Both the position numbers and the translations under genes were made by a program. A model generated the notes under the pieces. It ran no database searches, was not told the DNA's origin, and saw nothing but the letters and a program-made list of their open reading frames with translations. A stretch of 64,000 nucleotides of DNA from Loxodes magnus (lineage: Eukaryota; Ciliophora; Karyorelictea; Loxodida; Loxodidae), in the NCBI GenBank assembly GCA_946699065.1, contig CAMPDV010000108.1, positions 372,001-436,000 on the forward strand, read 5' to 3'. Shown here piece by piece: positions 1,496 through 62,929 of this stretch; position 1 is the stretch's first letter, and every line of letters starts with the position of its first letter.

Positions 1496-2960
1496 ATGGA
1501 ATCTGGGATTTATGAAGAAGAAAAAGAGAAGCAAACAAGAAAATTAAAAGAAGACTTTTATCAGAAGGTTGTAACAGTAGACGATCAACTCTTTCGTTCC
1601 TTTTCCTTCCACAATGTATAAGGCTATGATGAGAAGACCTATTAAATTCGACTAAAAATATGGGACGAAAAACAAGCAAATTCAAAGTTAGATAATATAG
1701 TGCAGCAATGAACTAGAAGCTCTTTATATAAAAGAGAAAGTAAGAATGTGCTAAGATGAAGTGCCCAGACTATATCTTTATCCTACCAGCAAATTTGGAA
1801 ACCAACAAAAGATGTAGATTATCTCCCATAATTTAAAGACAATAAAAAACCCAGACAAAGTAAAAAATAAGAAAAGTAATGTGAGTTCAATTAGATAAAA
1901 GTGATATAATAGCAAAAGAATAGAAATTTAAAGTTAAATAAATCCCATTATTATAAAATATAATCTAGAAGCTAAAAAATAATAAACTATAAATGAACAT
2001 TTTAGACAGTTTTTATTACCCTAATAAGAAACATTAAAAATAGATAGGTGCTTTATTCCAGATTTTCTATCTTCAAAATAAACCCAAAATTACTAATTAA
2101 AAATAATCAAGTATCAGTTCATCTTTATAAGAATGAGATTTCAGATGACAGTTACCAAGAATACTTTCAAGAAGCAGATTAAGTAGAATCGAAACTGTTT
2201 ATCTTATTAACAGTATGAAAAGAAAAATTTTAAGAGCAATTCTACTTAGAAAAGCATAAAAAGACCAATTATAAAGAATGCAAAGCACTTTTGAGTGCTT
2301 AAAATTATAAAATTATACGCATTATAGGAATAGCAATTGATACTTTAAAGAGAGTATCAATTTGGCTGTAAAAATAATTTTTAATCTAAGACTAATTTGA
2401 TTTTTAAATAAATCAAATTGATTCATTAAAATTCTTTTAACAAGTCGAAACTTGGATTTAAATTAATCTACTGAGTTAAATAGCTGAAGGTAATAAAGTT
2501 ATTAATTTAAGTAGAAATTCAGTAATTTCGAGCATCTAAAATATTTTGCTCCTGATTAAGTCATAAAAATTGCAGATTTTAATTTAGTAAGTGAAGTAAA
2601 ATGAAATAAATTTGAGTATAATAACCTAAATATTGAATGACACCTGAGCTATTTAAATTTTTTTAATTGGAAAGTTATACTCAATTTCTTTTGTTTAGAC
2701 GAAGAAATTTCTATAAAAGTTTGGCTAGCAAAACTAAGCAAGATGTTAGCTAAGAATATTGAAAGATAAATAATTTTGCAGCTAATAATAAAAATCAGGC
2801 TTGACAAGATATTAGTTGATATATTTACCTTAGATGCTCAGCATGTCTTCAGCTATAAAAATAATTTAATATTAATATATTTAATGTGTTAAATTTTGGC
2901 TATCTTAAGTAATCTTATTTAGATTCACTTTGATAAATTAGTTATTCTTATATAAAAATT
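1496..2960 (+). pseudogene. degraded protein-kinase-like gene
   Basis: Reading TAA/TAG as Gln and TGA as Trp, the frame from ATG 1496 (MESGIYEEEKEKQTRK...) gives a basic, charged, clearly protein-like sequence across about 1 kb. The first in-frame TGA after good coding is at 1994-1996, but coding composition continues in the same frame beyond it (segment VHLYKNEISDDSYQEYF near 2115-2165). Around 2490-2580 a kinase-like catalytic region appears in pieces: an ILLLIKSQK stretch, then KIADFNLV (DFG-like, with Asn instead of Gly), then WMTPELF (APE-like). These pieces lie in different frames. The catalytic region therefore looks broken and the gene is probably dead, or the sequence carries indels. 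Family not recognised. A shorter 166-aa product ending at 1996 is the alternative reading. Confidence 0.45.
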
Positions 2961-5762
2961 ATACCTATTTTATTTAATTGATATAAGATCTTAAACGAAT
3001 GTAAATCCTTTTTTGAAATTTTTGAAATAAAAATATTTAAAACTTTGGAAGTTTATAATTAAGCAGTTTTATAGGATCTAAAGAAGTGAATAAATGGCAT
3101 TGCATAAATAATTAATAGGCACATTTTTAATGCTTAGAAAATGTTTCTCATATGATATTCATGATATTAAAGATATAAAAGTTTAAAATAATTATTTATA
3201 TCCTATTCTATTATTTACTAACACTTTTAAATTAAGTAACTAGCAAATTAAATATGTAGATATTAATTAAGTTTAATTTAAATTTATTGCTAAGCTGATA
3301 AGATAATTACACTGAGTTCTTTATAATTAATAAAATACTTTTTCCTGCTAGAAAAAATTATAAATAAAAATTTAGATAATTATAACAAAAAAAGATGCAG
3401 CAAGACTTTTATTTTTTAATAGATGATTTAGCTTAATAGCAAACAGTACTTAAGAATGAAAATAAAAGTCTCTTTCATTTGCTTAATATAATTCAAAAGT
3501 ATTTTTAATATAAATAATTTACTTAGGAGATAAAAGATTATTAGGTAGATTTTATTTATTGAATGATTTATTTCAAATTCTTTTTATGATGCTTATTATT
3601 TCTTTTCATAATACTTACCTTATAACTCCTAGTAAATAATTTAGAACTTAAAATATAAAATAATTTATTTTATGTAATGTTCTGGTTTAAGCATATCTAA
3701 ATAGAAATATTTTTATTGCTACTAAATGCCTTAAATTTTAAACTTAGCAAATTAATATTTAGTATTAAAGCAATTTAAAGATTTAAAAGAATACTTACAA
3801 CCTTTTTAATTATCAAAACACTTTTAATATATAGTATTTAAAATTTTTAATAATTTTGATAATTTTGTCTCAGCTCTTTTTTAATGTGCTAAATTATCAT
3901 GTTCTTAATTATAGAATTATCCAAAAACAATTTGGATTCTATTAAAAGCAATTTTATGTATAACTAGACAATAGATAATATGTTTATTTTCAATGAATCT
4001 TCCTAAACTAAAAAGAGAGAAATATAAATAATTAAAAACATAATCTAAACATATCCAGTTCATTTAAATATTATATGATTTATTTATATTTTATCAAGCT
4101 AACACTTTTTTCTTCTTTCATAATTTAGATTTAAAGAAGAAATTGCTTCATCAAGCTTATATTATTAAATATCTTGCTTATTGCATCATTTAAATTTATA
4201 AATGGTGTCTTTTGGTGATTTCTATTTTAAAATTAATTTTCTATAACTAAGTGCCTAAAGATGTTTTTTAGCAAGCTAGTACAGGAAAATACAATTTTTA
4301 TAAATTAGGTCTTTCTTTTTCTTTTAGCAGCGTTGATTTTCGTCTTATGTGAGTATTATTTAACTAAAATTACTAGTACTATTAGGAATTCCTAAATCTT
4401 TCTTTGGTTAGTTTTATTTTTGACATTACATTGAAAAAATAAATATATGGATCACTTTTATCGGAATAAAGCATCCAAAATCTTCTTTCTTTTTCTAATT
4501 TACTTTGATTAGAAATTACAGTTTAATAGCTTAAAAATTATTCAGCTTCATTTTACTTAATTTTTTTGCTAGTATGATTTTTTTTAACTACATTAAAATT
4601 CACTTACTAAAATCATGCTAATGGTTTTTTTTCTTTGTTTCATTAAGTTGAGCATAAATATGGTGACTTTAAATGTTATCTATCCTATTGACACAATTTC
4701 ACTTTATTCAGCTTTTCATTTTATTTACAAACCTTAAAGATAAAAATTGCATTAAAAAGGATAATTAATAACCTCAAACTTACATTAAAAATCCTAATTA
4801 TTTATAATATTAATTATTTTTCCTTTTTACATTCAAAATAAATATAGCTCTACTAAATATCTCTAACTTTCTAGCTTTTATTTTATTACTTAATACTTTT
4901 AGCTATTGTTACTAATATAATTCACTGTAATTTATTTAAAATCTACCACATTTGTTGTTGTTTATATAAAGGATTAACAGATTAATTTCTATCATTAGTA
5001 TATTTATACGTTTGATATTTAAATTTATTAATTTATATAAATTCTTATTTATAGTAGAATGTTTTAGTCAAATCAACTATTTAACCTCTAATTTTTTTTT
5101 AATTTACTTGACAGAAGATTCTAGTTTAATAACTCACAAGATGTAAATGAAAGAATCAAAATAATTTAAGAATATAAATTATCTACTTAATAAGGGGCTT
5201 TTTACTGCAAAATGCTTATATTTAATTTGTGCTTGAAAAGTTCAAATTGTATAGAAATTTAGATTCCTTGATTAGGGATATTTCTTAATCACATTTGTCT
5301 ATCTAAATACTTTTTTATTCCATTATCATTAGTTCATTGGCATTATTTTTAGTTCTTAATATTCTTGCTGAGTCTTTTGATTTATCATAGAGTTTAAGCA
5401 TTAAAAATGTAAATAAAAGAAAACTTTATAACTTCATTGTCTAGGGATATATTGTAAAGTCAAACTGAATGCTAACCTAAATTTCAAGTATCTAATTACT
5501 TTTAAGAGAAATAATTCTAATAATTCACTTTTAAACTAACCATTTAATAGAAAAATTTTCTAGATAATTAATTAAATAAGCCTCGATATTAAATAGCCAA
5601 TTTATAAGACATATTACTCTAAGATAAGCTTTTTATATAGGTAATAATATCTTATTTTCATTTTATTTTATCACCTATAAAATTAGGTAAATACCCCACT
5701 CTCATAAGAATTAACTCTGTTTTAATATATAAATTTAATAAAGGTAATTTACCTATATATAC
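2961..5762. other. AT-rich spacer, nothing recognised
   Basis: About 2.8 kb of AT-rich DNA with short homopolymers and simple AT patterns. I see no sustained coding composition, RNA-like block or mobile-element end. Decayed coding fragments cannot be excluded by eye. Confidence 0.3.
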
Positions 5763-12100: not shown

Positions 12101-12546
12101 ATTAAATAAAATACAGTTCATTAAATTCCTTCTAATTGTAAAATTTTAAAATAATATCAAAATTAGTACTTTAATTTCTTAAACGCCTTCAATCTATTTT
12201 ATTTAAAATTATTAAAGTTACACAAGTAAATATATTGATAATATTTTTCTGAACTAAGATCTTATTTTTCTTAAAAGCATAAGAATGAAACTTTTTATCT
12301 ACTTATATATAGAGCAAGTTTATATGAAATTAAAGATTAAAATGTCGATAGTAGCTTTAGACTAAAAGCAAAACTAAGTAAATTTTTACTTTGATTCGTT
12401 TTTAATTGAAATAATATGATATATCAATCTTACTAAAGATCTAAATATTTTTATTTCATGACAAAGATAATTGCTATTGCAAAAACTGATTTAGTATAAA
12501 AAATTTGAGTATGTAAGAATTTATTTATTTATTTTAACTTAAAGAG
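9194..12546. other. AT-rich spacer with possible decayed coding (10850-11930, -)
   Basis: Mostly AT-rich DNA without recognisable genes. On the minus strand between about 11930 and 10850, several stretches look protein-like under the ciliate code (for example NVISDLNIFILPILL and KVAIEVDLEISSSHYKI). They do not join into one convincing frame and match no family I recognise. They could be a decayed gene or chance in low-complexity sequence. Confidence 0.25.
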
Positions 12547-12830
12547 TTTTGGACTGCAACTTCTTGCAGTTTAACGACCCCAACACTCCCTTCATGGAAT
12601 AACGGGGATATCCTGTTGCTTTCGAAAAGCAGCTGCCAGGGAGCTCCATCGCTATGGGCAGCCAGGTTTCAAGCCCCTACCAGGAGTGGATAATCAAAAA
12701 AAAAGGACGTTCCATTGCAAAGGTTGACTTTGACCAGGGACTTTCTCAGCGACAGGAAAGGAACTTGTTCCTAGCCATAAAGCCAGAAAGTATGATTGAG
12801 AAGGTCAATCTCAGCTCCCACCATCTTTTT
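12547..12830 (+). ncRNA. candidate structured RNA, left copy
   Basis: A sharply GC-richer island of about 284 bp inside AT-rich DNA, matched by a diverged inverted copy at 14209-14492. It starts TTTTGGAC and ends at a T5 run after CCACCATC, as a Pol III terminator would look. Three hairpins are supported by compensatory change between the copies: 12554-12569 (CTGCAA/TTGCAG here, CGGAAA/TTTCCG there); 12617-12631 (TGCTTT/AAAGCA here, TGTGC/GCACA there); 12718-12732 (CAAAG/CTTTG here, CAGA/TCTG there). A fourth, AACGGG-GATA-TCCTGTT, is nearly unchanged. A B-box-like GGTTTCAAGCCCC occurs here but is not conserved in the other copy. No known RNA family recognised. An alternative reading is the terminal inverted repeat of a mobile element. 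Confidence 0.55.
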
Positions 12831-13594
12831 AATTATAGTATGTAAGAATTATATTAGTTTAAGTAGATCTTATAAGGTTGGCTAATTAATAGGGAATTTT
12901 ATAATTGATTCTAATGTTTATATAATAGAATTATATCTATATAATTCAGTATTGCTTAAAAGGTTCAAATTCTTAAATGTTTTGAATCATTTAGTATAAG
13001 CTGTTTATTTATATTTATCTTCTTAACATATTTAGAATTTTTTAGCACATATCTTTCTTAAGCAAAGGTAAAGCTAGTTACTTTCTCATAATAGAACTCA
13101 AAAAGATATCCAAAAAGGAGAAAAAAGTTTAGACAGTTAAATTCTGTAAAATAGTGACTGAGAATGAAATTTATTTGTGAATTAATAAAGTTTCCTGAAA
13201 AATAAAGAGAAAGAAGAAGAAAAATTGAATGTAATTGATTTTGAGGGTTAGTATTAATATATATCAGTAAAATCAGTACTAATATATTAAATTATTTCAT
13301 TTTAGTGAAAATTAAGCTTATTTTATAGAAATTAAGATAGGACTAAGCTAGAATTGTTTACAATTATAATAAAAGATTTTTATAAAAAACTCGCTACAAA
13401 TTTTAAAGTCAGGCACTTTTTAAGGATTAAAAAAAAACGATAGTCAAAAGACTCCTTAATAAATCAATTATATCAGTATAAAAATTAGTAAATTTATATC
13501 TGAAAGTTTTATTATGTCTAATCATAATAAAAAGTAAAATAAGTTTATATTTTTAAAGTTAATATTGAAAATTATTATAAATAAATTGGATTTT
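12831..13594. other. AT-rich interior between the inverted RNA-like copies
   Basis: AT-rich, no gene seen. An imperfect palindrome lies near 13245-13290 (TAGTATTAATATATATCAG ... CAGTACTAATATATT). Otherwise nothing recognisable. Confidence 0.3.
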
Positions 13595-13628
13595 AGAGCT
13601 CGTAGCACTCTCGTTGGTGCGCAGCTCT
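13595..13628. repeat. hairpin repeat, copy 1
   Basis: AGAGCTCGTAGCAC then a short loop then GTGCGCAGCTCT: a hairpin with outer AGAGCT/AGCTCT and inner GCAC/GTGC stems. A near-identical copy is at 61666-61699 and a diverged one at 16021-16051. In copies 1 and 2 the hairpin precedes the CCAAAGC...TGATGAAG block by about 100-200 bp. Confidence 0.6.
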
Positions 13629-13723
13629 TTAAATTATTTTTATTTAATGTCGAAAAATAAAATTTAATAAATCTCTCTATCCTTTTTTTCTCTTCCTGCA
13701 GTGTGAGCATGTAAGTTAACCCT
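13629..13723. other. linker between hairpin repeat and RNA-like block
   Basis: AT-rich then pyrimidine-rich linker between the hairpin at 13595 and the block at 13724. No gene seen. Confidence 0.3.
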
Positions 13724-13783
13724 CCAAAGCATAGGATGCAATACGCGATTATGGGTACATCTTTTCCCCGAGCTATGATGAAG
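13724..13783 (+). ncRNA. conserved RNA-like block, copy A
   Basis: Shares an ordered set of short motifs with two blocks at 61894 and 62043: CCAAAGC, ATTATGGGTAC, TTCCCC and TGATGAAG. Outer stem CATAG (13730-13734) pairs with CTATG (13773-13777). In the other copies the same stem is CAGAGG/CCTCTG, a compensatory change. An inner GGG...CCC hairpin is kept. TGATGA resembles a box C core but no box D partner was established, so snoRNA identity is not claimed. Confidence 0.5.
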
Positions 13784-14208
13784 AAGATTTTCTCCTGGCA
13801 TTCAGAGCTCCAGCTTGTCAAATCTTACTTCTAGGAGTTTCTTGTTATTGGTTTCTCTTTCTAATATTTATCCTCCGTCCGCGTTCATTATTGATTACCT
13901 TGCTGGGCTCCAAGCAGCATCCGAAGGAAAGAGCTTTCCACCCTATTTAAATTTTATATATAATAATAATGAACTTAAAGTTAAAAATTCTTGGATTCCC
14001 TAAGATCTCAACTAGATTTTTGCTGCCATTTTTTTAACGTGAATGGATATCATAACCGAGTTTTTTACGTGAGAGTTAATCTTTAAAAGTCATATTAGCT
14101 TCCTGGAAATATTTTTCTCTTGTGAATTCCGGTTCCAGTATTCAAAATCTATTAAGCGTCTTTCACGATCGTAATTTTTCTTTTATTTAGACTTATTTCC
14201 AATAATTG
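13784..14208. other. moderately GC-rich sequence, no gene assigned
   Basis: Less AT-rich than the surroundings. A short plus-strand open frame exists (13815-14003) but has no family resemblance and sits inside the RNA-like island. It may be the 3' part of the block-A RNA or element interior. Confidence 0.25.
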
Positions 14209-14492
14209 AAAAGATGGTGGGAGCTGAGAATGACCTTCGTGACAACACTTTCTGGTTTTATGGCTAGGAACAACTTCCTTTCCTGTCGCTGAGAAAGTCC
14301 CTGGTCAGAGTCATTTTCTGAAGGTAACACTGTCTTCGAGATTATCCGCTCTTGGTAGGGGCTTTAAGTCTGGTTGCTCATAACGATGGAGCTTCCTAGC
14401 AGCTGTGCCTGGAGCACAACAGGATATCCCCGTTATTCCATAAAAAGAGAGCGTCGGGTCGTGCAATCGGAAAGGAGTTTCCGGTCCAAAAA
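14209..14492 (-). ncRNA. candidate structured RNA, right (inverted) copy
   Basis: Inverted, diverged copy of 12547-12830. Shared blocks on this strand include TATGGAATAACGGGGATATC, AGCCCCTACCA, GACTTTCTCAGCGACAGGAA and CAGCTCCCACCATC, followed by a T4 run at 14209-14212. Stems at 14468-14483, 14404-14418 and 14306-14320 differ in sequence from the left copy but still pair. Divergence that preserves pairing argues for selection on RNA structure rather than a recent palindromic duplication. Confidence 0.55.
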
Positions 14493-14519
14493 CTTTTTTA
14501 GTTGAAATTAATTAATTAG

Positions 14520-15030
14520 ACTTATTTCCACCAACACAATGTCTTAATAAATGTCGAATTTAATTTCAAACCAAAATTGTTTGGTTTATCTTTTCTGAGG
14601 CTTTTCTAAGGTTTTTAATTTTCAAGCTAATTAATTTTTTTAAGATTCTTTTAAGACCGCTAGCATAGCTGTTATTATGTGACTAAATTATTCTAGATGA
14701 ATTGATTTCTAATTATTAACATTCATTATTTAATCTTTTATAAAATTCATTAATTCTCTTATTTTTCTCCTTTCCCTATCCTTTTTCAATAATATTAGTT
14801 TATATTTTGCATTAGATCGAGCTATAAAAAGAATACTGATTTCTTTTCAATCTTATCTGGATTAATCTCAACTTTATTAATCATAATTTTATCTTACGAT
14901 GAGGAACTTTATAACTCTTCTTGCTTTTGATCTTTCTAAAATTGATTTGCTGATTTCCTTTATGCGTCTCTAATTTATTTTTGTAAGGTAAATAGATTAT
15001 TCCATCTTCTTTTATTTTGAAAATCGTTAA
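14520..15030 (-). pseudogene. hypothetical gene with homopolymer frame breaks
   Basis: Minus-strand sequence with coding composition in pieces: KNKLETHKGNQQINFRK, then MINKVEINPDKIEKK in the next frame, then KEKNKRINEFYKRLN back in the first. Each switch coincides with an A4 run where one base more or less would restore a single frame. No ATG start or TGA stop was fixed. The 3' end runs toward the RNA-like copy ending at 14492. No family recognised. Either a decayed gene or a gene with assembly indels. Confidence 0.35.
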
Positions 15031-29196: not shown

Positions 29197-29659
29197 CTAT
29201 TTTTGATTTAATAAATTAAATAACTTAAAGGAAATTAGGCAAATAACAAATTAAAGGAAAGGAGATTATTTAATAGCTTAGTTATAAAACTAACTCTATA
29301 TGTAGCATTCAATCCTAAAATATTTATTTAAACTCCCATTCTAGCTATAATTTTAGGCTAGTATATTAAGTATTTGCAAAACAATCTAGTCAATTATGGA
29401 ATAGATAAGGATTCTTCTTTTATAGCCCAGAAGTTAAACTAAATATCTTATAATAAATTAAGATTTTAATAAAATCAAAGCTTTAAGAAATCTAGCTACT
29501 ATACAAGATAGAGTTTTGATTTAAAGTCTAAAAGTATAAATTAAATTTAGAATGGCTGAATACTTAGGGGAAACAGTAAAATATAGCATTAATAAAAAGT
29601 TGCTTTAAGACTGTAAATTTAATATTATCTTTTTAAGAATAAACTAAACCTTGATGAAA

Positions 29660-31290
29660 ATAATCTAATCAGATTTATGTTGAATTTAATTAAAGAAGCT
29701 GTATTAAATAGTAAATTAAATTTAGGAAAAGAGATAATTAAATATAATTATGTAGGAAGCTAATTTCTAATCTTAAAAACTTTATGGATTGATTGGGCCT
29801 CCAGTTATAAATATGTGCAGTGGTTTAGTCTCACTTAAAGGTGGGGTGTATATAGTTTCCTTTTATGATAGTTTCTTTTCTATTCTTAATATAATGATCC
29901 TAGCATCCCCATTCTGATTCTTTGCTTATTCTAATACTTCTGGTTATGATTTTGCATAAACTAAAGATTATAATGATAAAGATAATATAAGTAACATTGA
30001 AGAAGATGATGAAGAATATTTAAATATCAAAATAGTTTTTGCTGCTTTATTAGTAAAACATTTACTGAGTGTTATAGCTCTACCCTTTGCATGTATAGGT
30101 ATGTATGGAGCTTGCTGTTTAAACCAAGAGCTAATAACAGTTTATTCTAAATTCAAACAGGTAGAATTTATTAATCTTATTATATGAAACTTTATTGCTA
30201 ATATGATAACCCATGGCTATTGGCTAGATAAATTTTTAATTTTTTTACGTGGTATCAATGATAATAATTATCTACTCAGATGGTAGTAATACAACCCTAG
30301 ACTTAGCAGGATCCAATGCCACAACTTGAATAGGACTAAGCAACGAAAGCTTACTGAGTAGTAAAAACTTAAGAACATTTTTTAGTATTATCTTATATTT
30401 AAGTTCTACTATAAAACCTATATAACACTTTAATTATCATGTCAGTAATAATATCTCTAACTAAAATTTCAAAATACAATTTTATATTTAAGTTACTTTC
30501 TAATTACATCTACGAAATAAAAAAAAGCATCTTAACAAAATTATAGATATAATAAATTATTAAAACTAAAAATAATATACTATAAATTGAGGTTTTCTTA
30601 AAGCCTTTAAATATAATTACAAACATTTTATTTAATAAAATATTTAAAACACTTTCAAATGATAATCAACCTAAAGCATTTTAAAAGAGACAAGCAGTAA
30701 TTTAATATAATAGCTAGTTTTAATTTAAAATAATAAAAATAAAAATTTAGGATAATATTCTTTATAATTATAGATAATTATTACATAAAGCATCTTCTTA
30801 CTTAATAAAATTAAATAAACTAGGATATTTACTAATAATAGACTTTTCATGTTATTTTAAAATAGAATCTTCTAATTAGCAAACGTCTTTGGAATGATAT
30901 ATTCAGCTTATGTACTAGAGTGGTTCTTATTTAAATCTTAAGATTATATTTAAAAAAATTAATCATAAAGATAAAAAATTTAAGCTTTATAGCCTTCAGA
31001 TAAATTAATTATTTATTTTTTAAACTATTTTAATAGAAAGCTTTAGCTATAAATACCTGTAATTAAGAAACTCTAAATTACTCTTTTGCTATTATTTACT
31101 AGCATTTTAGTAAGAAATTCGGGCAAAAGAATGAAATTACTTGAATAGTAAATATTTTACTAATAAATAGTATTTTTAGTTTTAATACTATTAGCTCTAT
31201 TTGTTAAATGTAATATAATGAGATTAAATTTAAAAATAAGAATATAGAACTTAGAATGTAGATATATGAATTTCCTTTAAGGCATAGATA
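29660..31290 (+). repeat. dispersed duplication unit, copy 1
   Basis: Shares a long stretch with 32880-34600 and 37790-39850: the block TTAAAGAAGCTGTATTAAAT upstream of the gene, the membrane-protein gene itself, and 3' sequence around AGAATCTTCTAATTAGCAAA. Boundaries are approximate. The upstream 300 bp shared by copies 2 and 3 is missing or diverged here. Confidence 0.7.
29750..30357 (+). pseudogene. multi-span membrane protein, paralog 1 (C-terminal part deleted)
   Basis: Starts MQEANFQSQKLYGLIGPPVI, matching paralogs at 33312 and 38219. Hydrophobic segments (VYIVSFYDSFFSILNIMIL; HLLSVIALPFACIGMYGAC; FINLIIWNFIANM) flank an acidic loop (EEDDEEY). After NMITHG the sequence lacks about 75 nt that encode the last membrane segment in the other copies, and the frame changes. 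The end still matches (QPQTQQDP, then KAY-TGA) in another frame. The total length is not a multiple of three, so this copy is probably inactive. In-frame TGA reads as Trp. Confidence 0.6.
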
Positions 31291-31359
31291 ATTGAATATT
31301 ATAAACTATTCTTATTGTTTGCTATATTAAAAGCTTCTATTAGTTACTTCTAAAGTTAT
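30358..31359. other. 3' part of duplication unit 1, non-coding
   Basis: AT-rich sequence matching the 3' flanks of the other two units. It is also open on the minus strand in the frame of the next gene, but does not look like protein. Confidence 0.4.
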
Positions 31360-32225
31360 GATTATTCCTAATAACTTTCAATAAAATACTAACTTAAATG
31401 CTTGTCGTTCTTGAAGGTTTTAACCTCTTTCTCGCCAATCTTTAAATTGCTCTAGATTATAAATATAAGCACTTGCAATTTTCTAAAACTTCCTCCTAGT
31501 TATGCATATGATCTTTGAGATTTACTTTCGCCTAGAAAATGTTTTGCATCTTTTTTCTTGTTTATGTTTCAGATCTTACTTCAATATAATATTTATCTTT
31601 TTATCCGACCCCTTCTTTTTATTCTCCTACTTCTTCTAGTAGCTTTAGTAATCCTATGTGAAATTGTGAAATTTTTGACATATTTTCCAGAAATGCATTC
31701 GAGTATTGCAGTATTGGTATCTTTTTTTGTCGCTAAGCTTTAAATCTTGATTTTTTTCTCCTTCGATTATAAGTATATCATTTCCATATTCTTTTGGTTT
31801 AACGATTTTATTCTTCTTGATTTTCTTCTATCTATCTTCTTATCCAGTTATTTTTGTTTCTATTACTAGTTTTATGGTTAACTGTTCTGTTTTTATGAAA
31901 TATTTCAGAAAGAGTAAAGGTTTTTTTTAGATAATGAGCCTCAATTTTTTCCCCCTAGTTTTTATAATATTTCTTCATTATTTTTTATCTCTTCCTTTAG
32001 GTCCTTCACTGTTTTTAAAAGCTATCATAATTTATTTAATGTTTAGTATTGAAATCAGAGACTTCTGAGTCCATTATATTTTTAACCTTTTTCCCAGACT
32101 TATTTTAAGAGGCGGAAATCTCAATTTAGTAGGTGTATTTTTTGAGCATATTTCGTGGTTCTATTCTCTAGGATGTCGCTAATTCCTTCTTTTAAGAGTA
32201 AAATTAATGATCTGAATTTTGACAT
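31360..32225 (-). CDS. hypothetical basic protein, frameshifted, stop unresolved
   Basis: ATG 32225 gives MSKFRSLILLLKEGISDILE ... TTKYAQK, then an A6 run. One additional A joins it to a long coding frame (NTPTKLRFPPLKISLGKR; TFTLSEIFHKNRTVNHK; FHIGLLKLLEEVGEQKEG; KVNLKDHMHNQEEVLENC; SRAIQRLARKRLKPSRTTS). It is very basic with Arg/Lys clusters. In-frame TGA codons read as Trp. No TGA follows the last coding-like part before the frame runs into the duplicated repeat, so the 3' end is a guess (or a TAA/TAG serves as stop here). No family recognised. Confidence 0.5.
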
Positions 32226-33311
32226 TTTTGTCTCTTATTATAGTATAAAATAAACCATTGGATTCTTATATAATTTATTTAAATACTAGCTTGTATTATA
32301 GTTTAAGATAAATAAAATCTAAATATTACCTTTCATATAAGATTTATATTTGCAAATTAAATCAAAATGTTCTTTCATATTGAGTAGGAGTTCTCAATAC
32401 AATAGGGTAAGAATCTTTAGCCAGAAAAAAAACTTTTTTCAATAGTTAAGTTAATTTCAAGATGTTATATTCCTTCTAGTAAGATAGAATGCAAATAGAG
32501 GCTAGAAATAAAACTAGCTAGTGACATAGTTATAAAAATACAATTATTGAATCATTTTTACTCATTTGTCTTTAAAGTAGATGCAAGCTAAGTTTTAAAT
32601 TACTCTAATAAGATATAATTTTTATGGATTATTATCCTTTATTAAATTATCCTCTCTATTTACTTTTTGAAATATAGAAACCTCTTATTTTAACTCTTTA
32701 AAGATTAAGAGAGTGACTGATAGAGAATCTTAGAACTGAATATAATGCTTATTTTATTATTAAAATTGACTTTAATATATATAGTTTAGATTTATAAAAA
32801 ATATGCTAAAATAAATAATTATAGCAAATAAATCTTCGTAAAAAGGTAGATTTTTATTTAAAGAAATTTAATCTAAAATACTTTTTATTACATCCTTTAA
32901 GTTTCTTTTCTCTAACTATTCGTTTTATTACTCTATAAGTTTTTATAAATTATAATAACAATAATTAAGATCTAGCTTAATATGCTTTAAAACTAGCTTA
33001 GTTAAAATTAAAATTTATATCCAAATCATAAGTTTAGATTTATAAATAGTATAGCCCTTTTAATGTTTTCTTAAAAATAAAGCTTCCATTATTTTATCAT
33101 TAAATTAAATCAAATTTAGTTTAATTCTTTAATCATCAAATCTTCTATAAGGTTCCTTGAGTAGTTTAATAAAAAGCAGCAAAAGTTTATTTATTGAGTT
33201 AATCTACTTTACCTTGATAAAAGAATCTAAAGGAATTTATGTTGAATTTAATTAAAGAAGCTGTATTAAATAGTAAATTAAATTTAGGAAAAGAGATAAT
33301 TAAATATAATT
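32226..33311. other. spacer containing 5' part of duplication unit 2
   Basis: AT-rich. From about 32940 it matches the sequence at about 37848 almost base for base (TTATAAATTATAATAACAAT onward), as the shared upstream region of two paralogs. No separate gene. Confidence 0.45.
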
Positions 33312-34130
33312 ATGTAGGAAGAAGATTTCTAATCTTAAAAACTTTATGGATTGATTGGACCTCCAGCTATTAATATGTGTTGCGGTTAAGTCACAATAAA
33401 ATGCGGAGTGTATATAATTTCCATTATTGATATAGTCCTTTCTACTCTTAATGCAATGTTTTTAGCATTATCATATTTATAAATTGTTATAGCTTATGCT
33501 TCTGTTTATATTTTAGCATCAAATGAAGAAGATTAAGATGATTATTATGACTATGATGAAGATTATTTTGATGAATATGATGATTATGATGAATATGATG
33601 AATATGATGAATATGATGAATATGATGAATATGATGAATATGATGATTATGATGATTATGATGAAAATAATTATTAAGAAAGGAAAATTGCTGTTATTTT
33701 CTTAGTAAAGCATTTACTGATTGTTGTAGCGTTACCCTTTGCATGTATAGGTTTACATGGTGTTTGTCATTAAAAAAAGAAGTTAGTAACAAGTTATTCT
33801 AAATTCAAGCAGGTATAATTTATTACTCTTTTTGTATGAAATATCATTGCTAATTTGATAGCTTATAATTTAGTTGGAGTTATTATTGGAGCATTATTGC
33901 ATGGACTGCTTAGCTTTTATTTTACTTACATAGTTTGAAGCGCAAGCTAGATACTTAAATTTGGAAAAAATATTGAAGCAATCTAAAGCTAAATCTAAGA
34001 AAATGTAATCTAAGGAATTCAGCTTCAACCATACCCAGAATAATAATTTGAATCAGCTTAAGTATTGGTAATACAGCCTTAGAATTAGTAGGATCCACTT
34101 TAATCGGATGAAGCAATGAAAGCTTATTGA
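33312..34130 (+). CDS. multi-span membrane protein, paralog 2, with expanded Asp-Glu-Tyr repeat
   Basis: 272 aa in one frame, ATG 33312 (MQEEDFQSQKLYGLIGPPAI) to KAY-TGA 34128. Three to four hydrophobic stretches are visible: VYIISIIDIVLSTLNAMFLA with VIAYASVYILA; IAVIFLVKHLLIVVALPFAC; FITLFVWNIIANLIA with GVIIGALLHGLLSFYFTYIV. Between the first and second lies a loop of tandem GAT-GAA-TAT codons (Asp-Glu-Tyr), 33523-33670, far longer than in the paralogs. The tail is Gln-rich (QQFESAQVLVIQPQ). Two TGA codons inside hydrophobic segments read as Trp. Likely an integral membrane protein. Function unknown, no family recognised. Confidence 0.75.
33523..33670 (+). repeat. 9-bp tandem repeat inside the acidic loop
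   Basis: GATGAATAT units and variants (GATGATTAT) encoding Asp-Glu-Tyr. The array is absent in paralog 1 and short in paralog 3, so it is an in-frame microsatellite-type expansion. Confidence 0.85.
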
Positions 34131-34934
34131 ATAGTAACTACTATAGACTAAAAATTTATTTTAAAATAGAATCTTATAATTAGCAAATAACTTACAAATG
34201 AATATTCGAATTATGTAATAAGAGGGATTTTATGTAAAATCTTGATATTATATTTATAAAATTAAGTAATAAAGAGGCAAATTTCAATTTTCTTTAATTG
34301 GTTGCTTAATTAACTACTTAATTCCAAAATTGTTTTAATTAAAAGCATTTATCTATAAATAATGGCTATTAAGAATGTTTTAATTACTATAATTTGATTC
34401 TATTTCTATACTTTTAGGATTTATTAAATGAATAAAGAAATTAATTGAATAATAAATCTTTCACTTATAAATAAGCCTCCTAGTTTTATATGTTTTTGGG
34501 CATAAACTATTTAATGTAATATTATGAGATTAAATTTAGAAGTAAGAATATCATAATGAGAATGTTGATTATAGTTTTTCTTGATTCATAGATATCAGAA
34601 GCATTAATACATTTCTTTTTTTAATTAATTTTAACTATAAGTGTTTATGAAAATCTTTAATTGTAAGAATTAATTCTTTCAATCAAAGATATTTTAAAAG
34701 TCTTTAAAAAATAAATCATCATTCTCTCTTCTTCAATTTGTTCAACTTGAATTCTGCTCTTCCAATCCCATCTATTACATCCAAGAATTGCACTCTGAAA
34801 GATAGAAGTTTTCTGTGAAAAATGTTAATCTTAAGATCTAAATAATCTAATTACTTTCTAGGAAATTAATTAATATATATATAATCGTAAATTATTAATT
34901 TCCTAATATCAAGATTCCCAACCTGTTATAAAAA
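34131..34934. other. 3' part of duplication unit 2, then AT-rich DNA
   Basis: Matches the 3' flanks of the other units to about 34560, then AT-rich DNA up to the end of the LINE remnant. No gene seen. Confidence 0.4.
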
Positions 34935-37300
34935 TCAGTTTCTTAAGTGTTTATAATATATACATATCATTATATGATCAAAAGCGTCATATTCTCCACA
35001 TTTACAACAAGGATTATCAATAGGATAATGACGGTCTTATAATTCCTTCCGAAAATTGTAAGACTGGGTTCTCATTTTATAAGTGCTATTAATTTCTCTT
35101 ACGTAATGCTTATTAAGTTTTGTATATGTTATTTCTGGAAACTAAGACAAATTTTGAAATTATTTAGCAAAAATATTAGCTGTAGTCATTCTGTTGATTC
35201 TTTAAATTGAATCTCTATAAAATCTAGCTTTTATTTAGTTTTTAACATGTGTACTAAATATATTTAAATTTCTGTTTATTTTTTCATCCCTTAAATAAAT
35301 ATTATAAAGCTGAGCCATCTTCATCACGTCATTATAGTATTAGTAACCTTCATTTCAGTTATTTTAAAATATTATTCCTATTGTCTAATTATTTTGTTCC
35401 AAGCTTTCTTTTCTGATTTTGTAAAAGAATTTGAAAAACCTTAGAGTCATAATATGCTTAAAGGGAAGTCAGTTTAAATCTACATAGCATGATTCATTAA
35501 TAGATCTTGATTCTGTTTAGAAAGCTTTTCTTTATATTAATCTCATACTTAAATCAATTTTATTTAACATTGAAGTAATACCTTTTTAAACAGTTCAAGG
35601 TACTAATTCTCCTCCATATTCCACTTTAGGTAAAGAATCTACAAAGGTTTTTAAAATGTCAAGGTGTCACGTTTTTATATCTTACCAATTAATATACAGC
35701 TTTCTTTACTGCAGTTAGATATTTAAACCCTGCTTCCTTACAGTGATTAATGAGGTTCTTTTTTTAATGTAATAATATTCCCAGATATGTGACTTATTGT
35801 TTTTAAAGGATTGATTTCTCGTTAATTTATAAATCTAGTTTGGTTTCTTTTCCTTTCTTTTTCAGAAATTATATAGCCTCACATTTGGTAATAATACATT
35901 TTTTTTTCTTTTCTGTATTCATATATTATTATACTATTTCTACTTTATGTTCTTATTTTTAATAAAATACTTTACAATAAAATACAAACTTAGATATCTG
36001 ATTTTCTTGAAGGTAGAAGAAATAGTTCTAAGCATATTTTAAAACAGATAGTTGCACTTGATTAAGAACTCAAAAAAAAAGATTGACAGTCAAATAATTA
36101 AATCTAATATTAATTGAAACTATTGAAGATGTATAGCAGAAGATATATCTACATTATATTACCATTTTTTGACAAAAATTAAGAAAGATATATGCATCTT
36201 GAAGATTGTGGATTAAAAGAAATTTTAATTTATGCACCTGGGCAGATAAGAGACTCTTAATTAAATCATAAATAAAAAATTAATTTAGGCCACATGATAA
36301 CTACTAAAAAGAAGTAGCATCAATCAGATTAAGATAGGACATGAAAATATTAATGGAGATACAAGCATAATATGCAGCTGACCAATTTATGAGAGAAAAA
36401 AAATTTACGTTTTTCAAATAATGAAACCGAACAAAAGTAAGAATTTTTTATAATTTTGATACAAAGTTAAAAATCTGCTCTATTAATTCGGGTAAGGGAG
36501 GTGATGTATGTCTAGCTATTAAAGAAAAAACTCAAAAGTATTGAATAATCTTTTATAATAATAATTAATTAATGTGATTCAACCTATATTTGTTTCATGA
36601 CTAATTAAAAGTTAAATGTTGAATAGAATAATTAACTTCAAATTTGCTTGGATCATGTTTATCATAATTTTTGATGATTTTTAATTTTTTCTTTTCAATA
36701 GTTTTCAGAGAGGTAGATTCCCTTTCATTTCTTATTGAATTCTTTAACTGTATTAGATATATGGAGCTTCTTTGTTTAATTGGAGTATTTTTTATTCCTG
36801 TAAATTTTGCCTTCTTAAATGCAATAAAGTCCTAATATATTTTCCCAGTAATTTTCTATGATTCTCTTTTCTTTTAGTCTAAATTGAAAAGAATTTCACT
36901 CGTTATGTTCTGGCCTCTTGCAATATTAGTAAATAATTGTTTTCCTTAGGAAATATGATTTATCTTAGTTTTTGTTCCAAATCCATCGGTATCTTTTAGA
37001 GGAATATGCTTTCTGTCAACTCTGCAAATTGGTTGAATTTTGTTTCTAATTAATCGCTTCTGATATTCGCTGCCTACTTATTTTCAGTATTTTGTACATT
37101 AGTATTAATCATCAGATATTAATTTCTTCTTTAGAGCACTTATACTTATCTTAAAAGTTTAAAATTTTCTTATTGTATAATTTTGTTGTCTTATAGTATT
37201 ATTTTCTGATGTTAGTTTGGCTAAATTGAATCTTTTTAAGAAGAAACTTTTTTCAAAAATTTTTCCATTTTATGTTTATAAATAATTTTTGATTAGAGTA
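34935..37300 (-). pseudogene. LINE-type (non-LTR) retrotransposon ORF remnant 1
   Basis: Minus-strand frames with hallmarks of a non-LTR retrotransposon polymerase. They include KVEIVQQYMNTEKKKKC and QVTYLGILLH (RT thumb-side YLG), then LPKVEYGGELVPW and VQKGITSMLNKIDLSMRL, and a C-terminal zinc-finger NPCCKCGEYDAFDHIMIC ending at TGA 34935. The RT catalytic box reads KYAQNYFFY instead of YADD, so both catalytic Asp are gone. Frame breaks occur (for example at an A5 run near 35680). An N-terminal part (36640-37300; DRKHIPLKDTDGFGTKTK) is coding-like, but the middle 36080-36640 is poor. An inactive copy. A related element lies at 57590-59912. Confidence 0.7.
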
Positions 37301-38218
37301 GATTTATTAAAGCTAAACTGGAGCATATTTACATTACATCTTGTTATTGCCAGATAATAGCAAAGCTAGGAAATGAAAGGCAAACATATGATCAACTAGC
37401 CTACTTTTGAACAATTTACCAGATAAACTAATATGTTAATGGAAGTATTTCAATGCTATTTTCTTAGATTATGGAGATAATCCTATCAATAATTATAATA
37501 ACACTATTAGATTCTAAAATTTCTAATATAAAATTAACTTTATTTAGTTAATGATAGCAGTAACAATATTTTAATGCTTAAAGAAGCAAGACTTCTGTAT
37601 TGTAAGGATTATATTATAATAAATAATTAACTGAATGTTAATCAGATTACTAATTCACAAACTTGTTACTATTAATTATCTACTTATTATATACCTATAA
37701 CAGTAGAGTTTCTCTTATAAACAATCTTAATTATGATAAAAATATCTAAAGGAATAAAATTAATAGACTGTAAGATCCTATATCTATCATTCTTTTATCT
37801 CATTCTGTAATTTCTTTCTCTTAACTCCTTTTTATATTATTAAACGTTTTTATAAATTATAATAACAATAATTAAGATCTAGCTTAATATGCTTTAAAAC
37901 TAGCTTAGTTAAAATTAAAATTTATATCCAAATCATAAGTTTAGATTTATAAATAGTATAGCTCTTTTAATGTTTTCTTAAAAATAAAGCTTCCAGTATT
38001 TTATCATTAAATTAAATCAAATTTAGTTTAATTCTTTAATCATCAAATCTTCTATAAGACTCCTTGAGTAGTTTAATAAAAAGCAGCAAAAGTTTATTTA
38101 TTGAGTTAATCTACTTTACCTTGGTAAAAGAATCTAAAGGAATTTATGTTGAATTTAATTAAAGAAGCTGTATTAAATAGTAAATTAAATTTAGGAAAAG
38201 AGATAATTAAATATAATT
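37301..38218. other. spacer with 5' part of duplication unit 3
   Basis: AT-rich. From about 37848 it matches the upstream region of paralog 2. No separate gene. Confidence 0.45.
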
Positions 38219-39850
38219 ATGTAGGAAGAAGATTTCTAATCTTAAAAACTTTTAGGATTGATTGGACCTCCAGCTATTAATATGTGTTGCGGTTAAGTCA
38301 CAATAAAATGCGGAGTGTATATAATTTCCATTATTGATATAGTCCTTTCTACTCTTAATGCAATGTTTTTAGCATTATGACTTTTAGCTTATGCTTTAGC
38401 ATCAAATGAAGGTGATTATGATGAGGACTATGATGAAGACGATGAGAATAAATCTTAAGAGAAAAAATTTGCTGTTATTCAATTAATAGCTTGCATACTG
38501 ACTGTTGTAGTGTTACCCTTTGCTTGTATAGGTTTACATGGTGCTTGTCATTTAAAAGAAAAGTTAGTAACAAACTATTCTAAATTTAAGCAGGTAGAAT
38601 TTATTACTCTTATTATATGAAATATCATTGCTAATTTGATAGCTCATGATATTCCAGGAGCTATTATTGGCACATTATTGCGTGGGCTGTTTAACTTTTA
38701 TTTTACTTATATAGTTTGAAGCGCAAGCTAGATGCTTAAATTTGGAAAAAATATTGGTATGATCAGCAGTTAAATTTAAGAAAACGTAGTATAAGGAATT
38801 CAGCTTTAACCATACAAAGGATAATAAGTTGTATCAGCTTAAATGGTGGTAGCACAACCTTACACTTAGTAGGATCCAAAGCCACAACTTGAATCGGATG
38901 AAGCAATGAAAGCTTATTGAATAGTAAATACTTAAGAATATATTTTTAGTATTAATTGATATTTAAGTTCTACTATAAAGACTTACATAGCACCTTTTTA
39001 ATCATATTAGCAATTGTTTCTCTAACTAAAACTTCCAAATAAAAGTCTACAATCAAAATATTTATTATGCACATCAACGAAATAAAAAAGAAGCCATCTA
39101 AACAAAATTTTAGAAATAGCAAATGTTTAAAACTAAAAATAATTAACTTAAATTTCAGGTACTATTGTAAATCTAAATACTATTTAAAAGGATATTTGTT
39201 AATAAAGTGATTAAAGCACTAACAAATGTTTGTGAAATTATAAGTAAATAGCCTTTATAAAGAAATAGCTTTAAATAGATTCCACAAGCTAGTTTAATTT
39301 AAAATAATAAGATTAAAATTTAGGATATAATTCTTTATAAGTATAAGGTAATTAAATCTTATTTATATTCTTTCCTTTCTTAGTTAATTTAAATAAGCTA
39401 GGATATAGATTACTAATAGATTTTCAAGCTATTTTAAATTAGAAACTTATACTATGCAAATTTCTTTCAAATGATATATCCGGGTTATGTTCTAAGATTG
39501 ACTTTTGTCTAAATTCTTTAATTTTTAAGTAAAAATAAAATAAAAAAGATAAAAAGCTTAAATTTCTTAAGTTGAAAGCTTAATTAATACTTATTTCTAG
39601 AATCATTAAAAAAGGCTTTATCTATAAATGCCTGCTATTAAGAAGCTCTACTCCTTTGATATTACTTACTAGATCTATAGAATGTCATTAAAACTGAGTA
39701 ATTAATTTACAAGAATATAAATACTTAACTGATGTATAGCATTTTAGCTTTTGATAATAATGTTCATTAAATGCTTAATGTAATGTTATAAGTTTTAGTT
39801 AAAAGTACTGAGCTTAGAATGTAGAGATATAATTTTTAATTATTACATGA
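37790..39850 (+). repeat. dispersed duplication unit, copy 3
   Basis: Third copy of the unit, same order: shared upstream DNA, membrane-protein gene at 38219, and 3' sequence resembling the downstream DNA of copies 1 and 2 to about 39850. Confidence 0.7.
38219..38920 (+). CDS. multi-span membrane protein, paralog 3
   Basis: 233 aa in one frame, ATG 38219 (MQEEDFQSQKLLGLIGPPAI) to KAY-TGA 38918. Same layout as paralog 2: N-terminal GLIGPPAINMCCGQ, hydrophobic segments, a short acidic loop (GDYDEDYDEDDENK), a second hydrophobic segment (LTVVVLPFACIGLHGAC), a third (LIIWNIIANLIA ... GLFNFYFTYIVW), then a Gln-rich tail (QPYTQQDPKPQLESDE). TGA reads as Trp three times. The GLIGPP motif, the PFACIG segment and the C-terminal KAY are conserved across copies and define the family. 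Function unknown. Confidence 0.78.
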
Positions 39851-41252
39851 TATTCAAATCTATTATATGGTTTTCTTCTTTTCTATTTTAAATAAGGCTA
39901 ATATTTAATTTTGTACTATTAGTTTATGCTTTAGAATCTTAACTATGTTTGATCCCTTTATTTTTATCTTACCTATTTAAAAGCTAGCCATGGACTGGAG
40001 TTTAAATAAAATAAAAATAATCACTTTTCCTAAGAGATTTTGCTATACTAACTGATTAAATTTCTAAATTAAGTTCTGATATACACAATCCTCAATTTAT
40101 TAGAGTTAATTTCTTTATTCAGAAAAAATGCTATTCAAGAGTTAAATTGATGCCCAATATCATATTTCTACTAGTAAATAAAGTGTGATAAGAGTTTTAA
40201 AGCAGTAGCAAGCAATAAGTTATTAATAAAAGATAATTCCTTTGAATCTTTATTTGCTTATTTCTCTTTTAATTAGATGCATGTTAAGCATATAATTACT
40301 CCATATTATCCTTTAATGAATTATCTTCTCTATTGACTGTTTGGAAATTAGCATTCTTTCCTTATTATAAACAATTTAAATTTATGAGAGTAACTAATAG
40401 AGAATCTAGAATTGTATTTAATGCTTAGAATTTTATTGAGATTGGCTTTCTTATTTATCAGTTTTGATGTACCTAGAAATGCTTTTAATTAAGCAGATAG
40501 TTAGATATTTCTATTCCACGTATTAAATAGCCTATATTATTTAGTTTTTAGATCTTTTCTTATTTTAACTCCACTAAAAACATAGGAGTTTCTTTAAGTA
40601 AACTAGATAATTCAGATATTAACGAAGCAATATACAAACTACTCTATAATTTTAGTAAAAGCATTAAGTTCTTACTTTTTAGCTAAATGCAGGTACTTAC
40701 TTAATAACTATACTTTCTCCTAAACATTATAAAAATAGAGTGTTTATAATAATCAGTCTATAATATCCGTTTAGTTTTAAGACTAAAGCTAAATAATAAT
40801 CTAAACGTGCTTTATTGCTACTTGATTATCATTCAGTTAATTAAATTACTAAAAATAATCCTAAATGCGTTTTATCAAGCTATCAAGTAAATTATTCTAT
40901 CTCTATAAATTTAATTTCAGTTAGTTCGCAAAATGTTAATGAATAAAGATATAGTAAATGATAACTACTATAGTTACTATTCTGAAGGACTATTTTATAC
41001 TTTAATAAGAAAATTAAAACTTATAAATTTCTTTATTATCTCAATAGAAAGAATATTGCTCTTAGTAATGTTCACACTAGCCTATTTCGACAGTAAGTAA
41101 GTGAATGCTAACTTACTTAATCTCTGCATTTATATTAATGCTATTTTAGCCTAGCTTGAATTGGCTTAGCTGGTAAAGGTAGAGAATCTTTGTTTAATTT
41201 CCTTTAATTTCCAATTTTTGTCATTTTTTATTGTACTTTACTTTTTTGTTAA
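38921..41252. other. AT-rich spacer, nothing recognised beyond the repeat 3' flank
   Basis: Repeat-derived to about 39850, then AT-rich DNA without coding composition up to the RasGEF gene. Confidence 0.35.
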
Positions 41253-59912: not shown

Positions 59913-61665
59913 GTTCTAAATACGAAAAACTCCTTAAAACAGAATTTAGTACTTTCATCTATCGATTGGAGCATATAGCTTGTTATCTTATAGAATAATT
60001 CTTATTACCTTTGAATATTTTAACTTTCGCTTCAAACAAGTGCTACAGAGATAGAAAAATGATAAGTTATTAGTTTGTCATAATGACTCTTCTTTAATTA
60101 ATTTCAAAAAAGCATAAATTCATAGGACAAGCACAGGTATGTGAATAAAAGCCTCCAAACAAAAGATTTGGATTTTCTATAAATTAAATAAGTAAATTTA
60201 GTAATTAATTCATTAAAGTAATTAAAACAAATTGTAATCAAAAACTGGAAAACAAATTTATATGCGTTCCAATAGAAATTCTCTTTAATAAAGGCATTAT
60301 TGAAGTATTTTATGAAATAAAAACTAAACTATAAATAGAAAACAATTTAACCACTAAAATAATACTACCTAAGATACTAAAATCTATCCAAAAAACAATT
60401 AAAAAATAAGATATTATCTTATTAATTCTAAAGATATGCCTTCAAATCTTTACTAAAATTAAAATTAAAATATAGTCAAAAAGCACATAAACTAAATATT
60501 TATTTTTGAATAATACTAATTAATAATCTATTACTTAAAGTAATTAAAGAAGTCAGAAATAAAAAAATATTATTAATTCTGATAATTCACATGCCACTAT
60601 TTATCTGATCTTTAAAATAAAAATATTCAACTTTAAATTATACAGTTAACTAAAGAAATGCATTATAAAATAAAATAATTTATAATTAGTCTAATAAAAA
60701 TTTATCTACTTAAGAAATAAAAATAACTTACAATAATATATAAAGACTAATATAAAATGCTAATCAATATAAAAACTAAATCTGAACTAGATATTTATGC
60801 TTTGATAAGTAATAAAGATATATCAAAAGTGTATTATCAAAATTATATAAATAGCATTTATTTTAAATATTAACTATTATAAAAATAAACATTAGTTACT
60901 CAAATCTCATATATAGCAATATCATAAAAACTACTATCAAAATAACTTGCTACTATGATTACTTAAACAAACTTCTTCACTTATTACAGTAACTAAATCA
61001 TTTAAACAATGAAATAATTAGTATAGATAAGAAATTTAGGTGTAACAGAAAAATTATTAAAATGAAGTTATTCAATAGATGAATTAAATCTAATAAAGAG
61101 AACTAAATTGAAACTAATGCTAATAAACATTTATTTAATCTTAAATGATAGGAACAAATAGTTCATAATGAGAAAACTTTAATAAAATTAGAAATTTTAC
61201 TTAAATTGAAACAGATAGCTTTCTAAATAAAGGTTAGCATGATAACAATAGATTATATTAGAATATAATTAATATTTATTTCAACTAATTACTTAATAAA
61301 AATAATAACCGAAATTTAACTACAGCAGTTATATTCTTTATATTAAAAACCTCAAAAATAAAATAAGCAATTTATAGACTAAGAATAAAATTCATAAAGA
61401 AAATTTTAACTTTGAATATTGAATTAGATAAGTAAAGGTAATAAAATTACGAATTAATATAGTTTTAAAAATTAAATTCTATTAAAAGATAAGCAAATTC
61501 AAATGATTTAAGAATGATTTTTAAATTAAATCTAAAATTTAAAAAGAATTAAGTAATTAATAATAGCAATTTTAGAAGAAGTAATAAGTAATGCATAAAC
61601 TTAAACTTGATATGGAAATATTTAAACAAAAGATAAATAAATAATAAATAAATAAATTTGATTAT
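59913..61665. other. AT-rich spacer, nothing recognised
   Basis: About 1.7 kb, extremely AT-rich from 60130 on. No coding composition. Ends at the hairpin repeat. Confidence 0.4.
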
Positions 61666-61699
61666 AGAGCGCGTAGCACTCTCATTGGTGCGCAGCTCT
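61666..61699. repeat. hairpin repeat, copy 2
   Basis: AGAGCGCGTAGCAC, loop, GTGCGCAGCTCT. Near-identical to 13595-13628, with changes mainly in the outer stem and loop. Confidence 0.6.
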
Positions 61700-61707
61700 T
61701 TAAAAAA

Positions 61708-61833
61708 TGTTTCATACTGACAAGAATGTTTGTTACTGATAAAATTATCAGATACTGATAAATCTTGTTCAATACTGGTATAATTATTCAGTACTGATAA
61801 AAATGTTAAATACTGATATAATTTCAGAATACA
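61708..61833 (+). repeat. imperfect tandem repeats of about 20 bp
   Basis: About six units built on ATACTGATAAAA (variants TACTGACAAG, TACTGGTATAA) between the hairpin repeat and the first RNA-like block. Unit length is about 19-21 bp and the units are diverged. Confidence 0.7.
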
Positions 61834-61893
61834 CGTATGTTTAATACTTGTTGGAGGTCCAAGGACATGGCAGGATTGTGTCTCATTACATCA

Positions 61894-61953
61894 CCAAAGC
61901 AGAGGACGACATGTGTCAATTATGGGTACTTAAATTCCCCACCTCTGATGAAG
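61894..61953 (+). ncRNA. conserved RNA-like block, copy B
   Basis: CCAAAGC, CAGAGG stem, ATTATGGGTAC, TTCCCC, CCTCTG stem, TGATGAAG. Same order as copies A and C. An additional GACA/TGTC hairpin lies inside. Confidence 0.5.
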
Positions 61954-62042
61954 CTCGCAATATTATTTCTTTTTCGTTCCAGAATTAAAAATTATAATAA
62001 GTCAGTGCCGAAGGTCTAAGAATCTTATGTCTCGAGGCCAAG

Positions 62043-62104
62043 CCAAAGCAGAGGAAGACATAAATTCAATTATGGGTACTTAACTTCCCCAACCTCTGAT
62101 GAAG
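62043..62104 (+). ncRNA. conserved RNA-like block, copy C
   Basis: Same motif order as copy B, about 150 bp downstream. It is followed by a possible hairpin GCTCA...TGAGC at about 62117-62136. A and B/C differ in stem sequence but keep pairing. Confidence 0.5.
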
Positions 62105-62929
62105 ATGACCTTGGTGCTCACTTTGGAACAATGAGCAAAGCAATTTAATAAAATATATAGTAATTTGAAAATAGATAATTTAAATTAAAAAAACTCTTCT
62201 ATGTCAAAACATTTACTCAACAAATATAATCTAACAAGACAAGCAATTTAAGATTAACATAATTAGTAGAAAGTATCAAGTAACACTATTAGAGCATAAT
62301 GTAATGTCAGTAGAATTATCAGATGAAGTTTTGTTAAACTATAGCATTAATATCATTAACTGAATCTAAATTTAATTTAAAGTACTTAAAACAAATAGAT
62401 TCAAGAGATAAAAATAAAAGAGTTTAAAAACTTAATTCAATTTGAAAATAGATATATTTAATTTTTCTACTAAAAACTGATAAAAGGATTAATAAAACTA
62501 AACAGATTTAATTGATGCTATTTGCCAGAATTAAATCTTACTTTCCAATAGTAATCTTAATATTCTAAAAAAGAAATTTGAAGAAGTAGATAAAATAATT
62601 TTACAAGCAAATGGTAAGGGTAAACATAATAATGAAAAAGAGCGAAATTAAATAATATGTTACTTTAATTTAAATTTTCTATAATTTTAAAGATTTACTA
62701 AATTAGAATCTTGAAGATGTACATAGTATGAAATTTGCAATATATAAGATAGATATGTTACAAATAATTAGGACTTAGAATAAGGTACTGTTGATATTGT
62801 GAAATGTAAAATTGATATAGATAGAAAGTTACTTAAAAAATATACAACTTAAGTAATAGTATTTTGATGCAATATTTCATTAATATCCCAAACAAGGAAA
62901 AGATTAATACACATTTAAATTAATTAATA
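62105..62929. other. AT-rich spacer before the LINE endonuclease region
   Basis: No gene established. The coding-like frame of the next element may reach some way into it, as the N-terminal region of its ORF. Confidence 0.3.

Follow-up and report, generated by a model that had tools for sequence, protein, structure and literature searches.

The window, that is the whole 64,000-nucleotide stretch of Loxodes magnus DNA analyzed here, corresponds to contig C108:372001-436000, and the genome searched with it comprises 705,730,643 bases in 7,843 contigs. Pfam domains (DnaJ and TPR) were found in two of the ten long frames scanned when TAA and TAG were translated as glutamine, which indicates a ciliate with a reassigned code. 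As the initial annotation had described, the window contains two GC-rich copies in inverted orientation, here called A and B: 12523-12836 aligns with 14516-14202 over 318 columns at 79.2% identity (E 5e-68). They also stand out from their surroundings in the manner it had noted, with a GC content of 0.43-0.52 in 100-base windows across A and B compared to 0.247 for the whole window. Listed by position, the features of interest are:

12508..12521, no strand: target-site duplication of A on the tail side, AGTATGTAAGAATT, 14 bp, inside repeat D3
12522..12836, probable sense strand minus: very probable SINE-like retroposon, subfamily A, ~315 bp; matches elsewhere with differing flanks; borders taken from the target-site duplication
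12522..12543, minus strand: A+T-rich repeat tail of A, an (AATT)n-like spacer whose length varies among copies; probable 3' end
12554..12569, minus strand: terminal hairpin of A, CTGCAA/TTGCAG; CGGAAA/TTTCCG in B, by compensatory change; probable 3' tail hairpin
12617..12631, minus strand: hairpin of A, TGCTTT/AAAGCA, compensatory to TGTGC/GCACA in B
12718..12732, minus strand: hairpin of A, CAAAG/CTTTG; CAGA/TCTG in B, with one compensatory pair
12837..12850, no strand: other copy of the target-site duplication of A, AGTATGTAAGAATT, 14 bp
13562..13975, minus strand: another retroposon, distinct from A and B and lying between them, ~415 bp; borders approximate, by eye; 79% over 417 columns to locus L006
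14183..14201, no strand: target-site duplication of B, 5' copy, TTATTTAGACTTATTTCCA, 19 bp, overlapping repeat D6
14202..14511, probable sense strand plus: very probable SINE-like retroposon, subfamily B, ~310 bp; matches elsewhere, with B-type copies in the 200 kb sampled
14468..14483, plus strand: terminal hairpin of B, CGGAAA/TTTCCG, the counterpart of CTGCAA/TTGCAG in A
14512..14530, no strand: target-site duplication of B, 3' copy, TTAATTAGACTTATTTCCA, 19 bp with one mismatch
61634-62131, tail on the minus strand: dispersed ~500-bp repeat; hairpin and ATTT tail common to the main LINE family, 94% (reverse complement)

The element between A and B holds the region's third GC-rich patch, and its 3' tail hairpin (~13577-13641) is common to an abundant LINE, with 87.5% identity over the tail (reverse complement). 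The repeat at 61634-62131 is internally dimeric, 61894-61953 resembling 62043-62104, and copies that are 92-94% identical to it occur in L020, L024, L037, L039 and L043, among other loci. Both elements are candidate LINE-tailed SINEs.

Elsewhere in the window, positions 29648-40471 hold blocks of direct repeats with 67-91% identity, perhaps duplicated genes, and GATGAATAT is repeated in tandem at 33537-33665. Outside the window, long frames of WD40 repeats were seen at L047:4416-7364 and L044:1734-2837, both on the minus strand; with 43-44% GC (genome ~25%) and hardly any TAA or TAG, they are possibly foreign or recently amplified genes.

Dispersal of A and B and their target-site duplications

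A genome search with A returned at least 40 scored matches including the window copy, the others being 96-97% identical (the best 40 of 1694 first-look candidates). The same search with B also returned at least 40 including the window copy, the others 95-96% identical (the best 40 of 752 candidates), so that the further copies for which the initial annotation had proposed to look do exist. Only ~12517-12836 is common to the A loci, whose flanks differ and are unrelated. The consensus cores of the family measure 289 and 294 bp and are non-coding and dispersed.

Twenty stretches of 10 kb (200 kb), hand-chosen at round coordinates on larger contigs and not strictly random, contained five copies, all of them nearer to B and all full length. 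Scaled to the genome, this sample gives a very rough figure of ~17,600 copies, with a 95% Poisson range of 5,700-41,000. No 5'-truncated copy was among these five. Matches to the tail lacking the body were chance-like among those listed, and the best of them, in L004, proved nothing. Divergence from the subfamily consensus amounts to 0-2.9% in 17 A copies, which had been chosen by similarity to the query, and to 1.8-8.6% in seven B copies. Such low values suggest that the family was recently active.

Some A-type copies occur as pairs in the same orientation, 16.6-17.2 kb apart, on C5975, C1131, C1966 and C2857, which we take as the sign of a large repeat, tandem or segmental, with the element inside it. 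Two of the loci on C5975, L007 and L008, have only the left flank in common.

The flanks of the copies bear duplications that chance pairing rarely reproduces. Scores of 12 or more were obtained for 22 of 26 copies and for 3.4% of 644 swapped flank pairs, with medians of 15 and 8, respectively; each of the 26 has a flank of its own, the remaining 11 of 37 copies repeating the flank of a tested one. This test used better borders than the first one, in which 380 swapped pairs put the 95th percentile at 11, a value exceeded by 16 of 20 copies. Across copies the duplications are ~13-25 bp long, some with mismatches. No good duplication accompanies four of the 26 copies (L007, L013, L017 and L032). 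Of these, L007 and L013 match L008 in the left flank and differ from it in the right, as would be expected if copies had recombined. In L018 and both L028 copies, a long spacer on the supposedly constant side means that the duplication may be misplaced.

The left flank of A matches only itself in the genome search, and two convergent copies in L038 carry different duplications. Because A and B each possess a duplication of their own and the arms in L038 differ as well, the inverted placement of A and B looks coincidental, each arm being a complete element.

Paired regions and orientation of the element

The initial annotation had singled out three hairpins that keep pairing by compensatory change between A and B, and all three were confirmed. 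Two-sided changes were also found at column pairs 55-145 and 99-119, and by eye CACTCC/GGAGTG in A corresponds to CGCTCT/AGAGCG in B, where a gap shifts the alignment so that this helix was not counted computationally. RNAalifold, applied to 24 copies with distinct cores (17 A and 7 B), yielded 66 pairs, nine of which show two-sided changes. Eight of these nine reflect the single split between A and B and thus represent one evolutionary contrast, not many.

A joint fold of the A and B consensus sequences contains eight double compensations and no broken pairs on either strand, as against permuted means of ~0.9-1.0 and 14-15, a comparison that is circular in that the fold was derived from these data. 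The MFE fold of the A consensus, tested on the B consensus, gave seven doubles on the strand read by the initial annotation (hereafter the annotated strand) versus a permuted mean of 1.03, a count that none of 5000 permutations equaled, and 11 broken pairs versus a mean of 16.8 (P 0.02). For the opposite strand, doubles numbered four against a mean of 1.12 (P 0.023) and broken pairs 14 against a mean of 17.2 (P 0.15). The fold of the B consensus tested on A was not significant on either strand (three doubles, P 0.067, and no doubles, P 1.0), and four single copies folded little better than their shuffles (z -1.69, -0.75, -1.90 and -0.43). Since the fold of A predicts compensations in B and that of B does not do so in A, the local hairpins are supported and credible, whereas one particular global fold is not supported.

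The two ends of the element are distinct. On the 3' side of the annotated strand, most copies have a near-constant end, reading CTTTTTAATTAT or CTTTTCAATTAT, followed by the duplication; the spacers of L018 and L028 are longer there. On the 5' side, a TTAA/AATT run of variable length lies between the core and the duplication. LINEs and SINEs carry a simple repeat of this sort at their 3' end. The variable repeat thus places the 3' end on this side, from which we consider it likely that the sense strand is opposite to the annotated one, minus for A and plus for B. Given this orientation, the first hairpin of the initial annotation is probably the 3' tail hairpin. Counting against it, the annotated strand comes out slightly ahead in the non-circular pairing test, and T4 runs occur inside the element on the proposed sense strand. 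The T4-T5 run with which each copy had been said to end is present (T5 in A, T4 in B), on what is probably the antisense strand. According to passages of PMC3747384, 3' simple repeats other than poly(A) are known in LINEs and SINEs, and the 3' tail hairpin is the element recognized by stringent LINE enzymes.

A probable SINE-like family and candidate LINE partners

Sharp borders, duplications proper to each copy, dispersal, and one constant and one repeat-bearing end together make up the anatomy of a LINE-mobilized non-autonomous retroposon. In all likelihood, A and B are members of one SINE-like family of such elements, ~300 bp in length, with two subfamilies that are ~80% alike. As in SINEs, the units are short, non-coding, dispersed and high in copy number, their target-site duplications vary in length, and a simple-repeat tail, here a variable (AATT)n, occupies the side that we infer to be 3'. 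A crude scan with a consensus for the pol III A and B boxes found none above shuffles on either strand. Neither Rfam nor ARAGORN recognized a tRNA, 5S or 7SL head, and a diverged head would be missed by them.

We propose that source copies would be transcribed into a short non-coding RNA of ~300 nt that would start near AATTAAAAAGATGG on the proposed sense strand. The reverse transcriptase of a LINE located elsewhere in the genome may then take the 3' hairpin and the (AATT)n tail, and a DNA copy would be inserted by target-primed reverse transcription. The hairpins would be kept in source copies because the RNA must be recognized.

The candidate structured RNA of the initial annotation survives as an RNA-like unit with compensatory hairpins; a pair of non-coding RNA genes with a pol III terminator is not supported, the copies being independent insertions that belong to a dispersed family. 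A more general form of that idea is a family of functional structured RNA genes, transcribed by pol III on the annotated strand and multiplied in the genome. It would account for the compensatory hairpins, for a GC-rich body with T4-T5 at one end and for the slightly better structure test on that strand, but it leaves each copy with its own target-site duplication and a variable repeat at the would-be 5' end, in a dispersed family of high copy number; the same strand of the B consensus also carries a T5 at position 51. Rfam speaks against it as well and agrees with the earlier statement that no known RNA family is recognizable: Rfam 15 gave no match at gathering in the 64 kb window, five sub-gathering matches (E 1.9-8.1) in 2.2 kb and, for two copies close to the consensus, nothing at an E of up to 5. 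We therefore regard such RNA genes as very improbable. Exact matches to two core patterns were absent from prokaryote and viral collections. A known RNA identity for A and B was discarded with neither Rfam nor ARAGORN giving a match, and an identity with the Tetrahymena G8 heat-shock RNA was considered and not retained.

Two inverted arms ~1.4 kb apart could also mark a single DNA transposon, foldback or MITE-like, that extends over 12522-14511 and has them as its terminal inverted repeats, and the convergent pair in L038, ~1.3 kb apart, has a similar look. The initial annotation had named terminal repeats of a DNA transposon with matching duplications as what would overturn its proposal. Duplications were indeed found, but they point to a different class, because each arm is a whole element flanked by its own, and in L038 the two arms carry different ones. 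Moreover, 28 of the 30 A loci listed have no second A/B copy within 1.5 kb on each side (a farther partner would be missed), the exceptions being the window itself (L001) and L028, where the partner is a head-to-head B copy. The interval between A and B contains a different repeat, the duplications vary over ~13-25 bp instead of being fixed in length, and by eye the A/B unit shows no inverted ends of the kind that DNA transposons and MITEs have. To this reading we give almost no credence. It is also highly unlikely that A and B are 3' fragments of another LINE family and not a SINE with its own RNA. A hairpin followed by a simple-repeat tail is LINE-like, two LINE groups look so by eye, and truncated A copies would escape a choice made by full-length similarity; however, the five sample copies, whose choice did not depend on similarity, are without exception full length, whereas LINE-tail matches in the same sample are often short with the tail kept.

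For the SINE-like family, LINEs are the likely source of the enzyme; in Loxodes magnus they differ from A and B in being 5-6 kb long and coding. The genome is LINE-rich, as PMC11441545 also describes, and RVT_1 gave at least 150 scored matches (the best 150 of 3403 candidates), those listed containing in-frame TGA. The two LINE 3' regions examined resemble A and B in having a hairpin and a simple-repeat run. One of them, L042 (~2776-4075), was read as a 5'-truncated LINE copy that ends 3' in a hairpin and then an ATTT-type run, its sole domain hint being a weak zf-RVT under the cut-off (E 0.033). The tail stretch of L042 is found ~1.37 kb after RVT_1 in about 20 of 40 matches listed, as judged by eye (C860, C634 and C292, for example), a position that links it with the main LINE family. 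The other, L051, lies downstream of RVT_1 of another group (C321) and has a hairpin after the open frame, then TAATTTAATTAATTAATT. With the LINE end there judged by eye, its repeat unit is (AATT)n as in A and B, and its hairpin is different. The A/B hairpin sequence is at neither of these two tails, and the repeat unit is common to one. As a separate observation, RVT_1 matches recur at a fixed spacing of 2,532 (and 2,504) bases on C5131:5395-26349 and C20:2028-7877, as LINE fragments in tandem arrays.

As to origin, we entertain tentatively, as a rather doubtful possibility, that the body of A and B descends from a ciliate RNA absent from RNA libraries, other than tRNA, 5S or 7SL, and kept folded by selection in source copies. 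If this were true, the family would represent a new class of SINE by origin and would point to a parent RNA of karyorelict ciliates that is as yet undescribed.

Loxodes magnus is reported in the account of PMC11441545 to be without the extensive repeat excision of other ciliates, both nuclear genomes being full of retrotransposons, and what multiplies there therefore matters. The same source counts 757 k copies of unclassified interspersed repeats in its MAC. The A/B family is probably among these, without being named a SINE in the main text, where the word 'sine' has no occurrence, supplements aside. Within the literature searched, no paper combines 'Loxodes' with 'SINE' and no title has ciliate SINEs as its subject; the kind of element is known, and the A/B family itself appears to be undescribed there. 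A recently active A/B family and a second family with a LINE 3' hairpin give a name to part of the 'unclassified' repeats, and they make LINE-driven mobilization of short elements testable in a ciliate.

The LINE-tailed SINE of the stringent type is represented by UnaSINE/UnaL2 of the eel. A and B are unlike LINE-tailed SINEs in that no tRNA, 5S or 7SL head and no pol III boxes are recognized and that the hairpin is so far without a LINE match. With the stringent LINE-tailed SINEs treated in passages of PMC3747384, they share short, non-coding, dispersed units and target-site duplications, together with a compensatory 3' hairpin and a 3' repeat other than poly(A).
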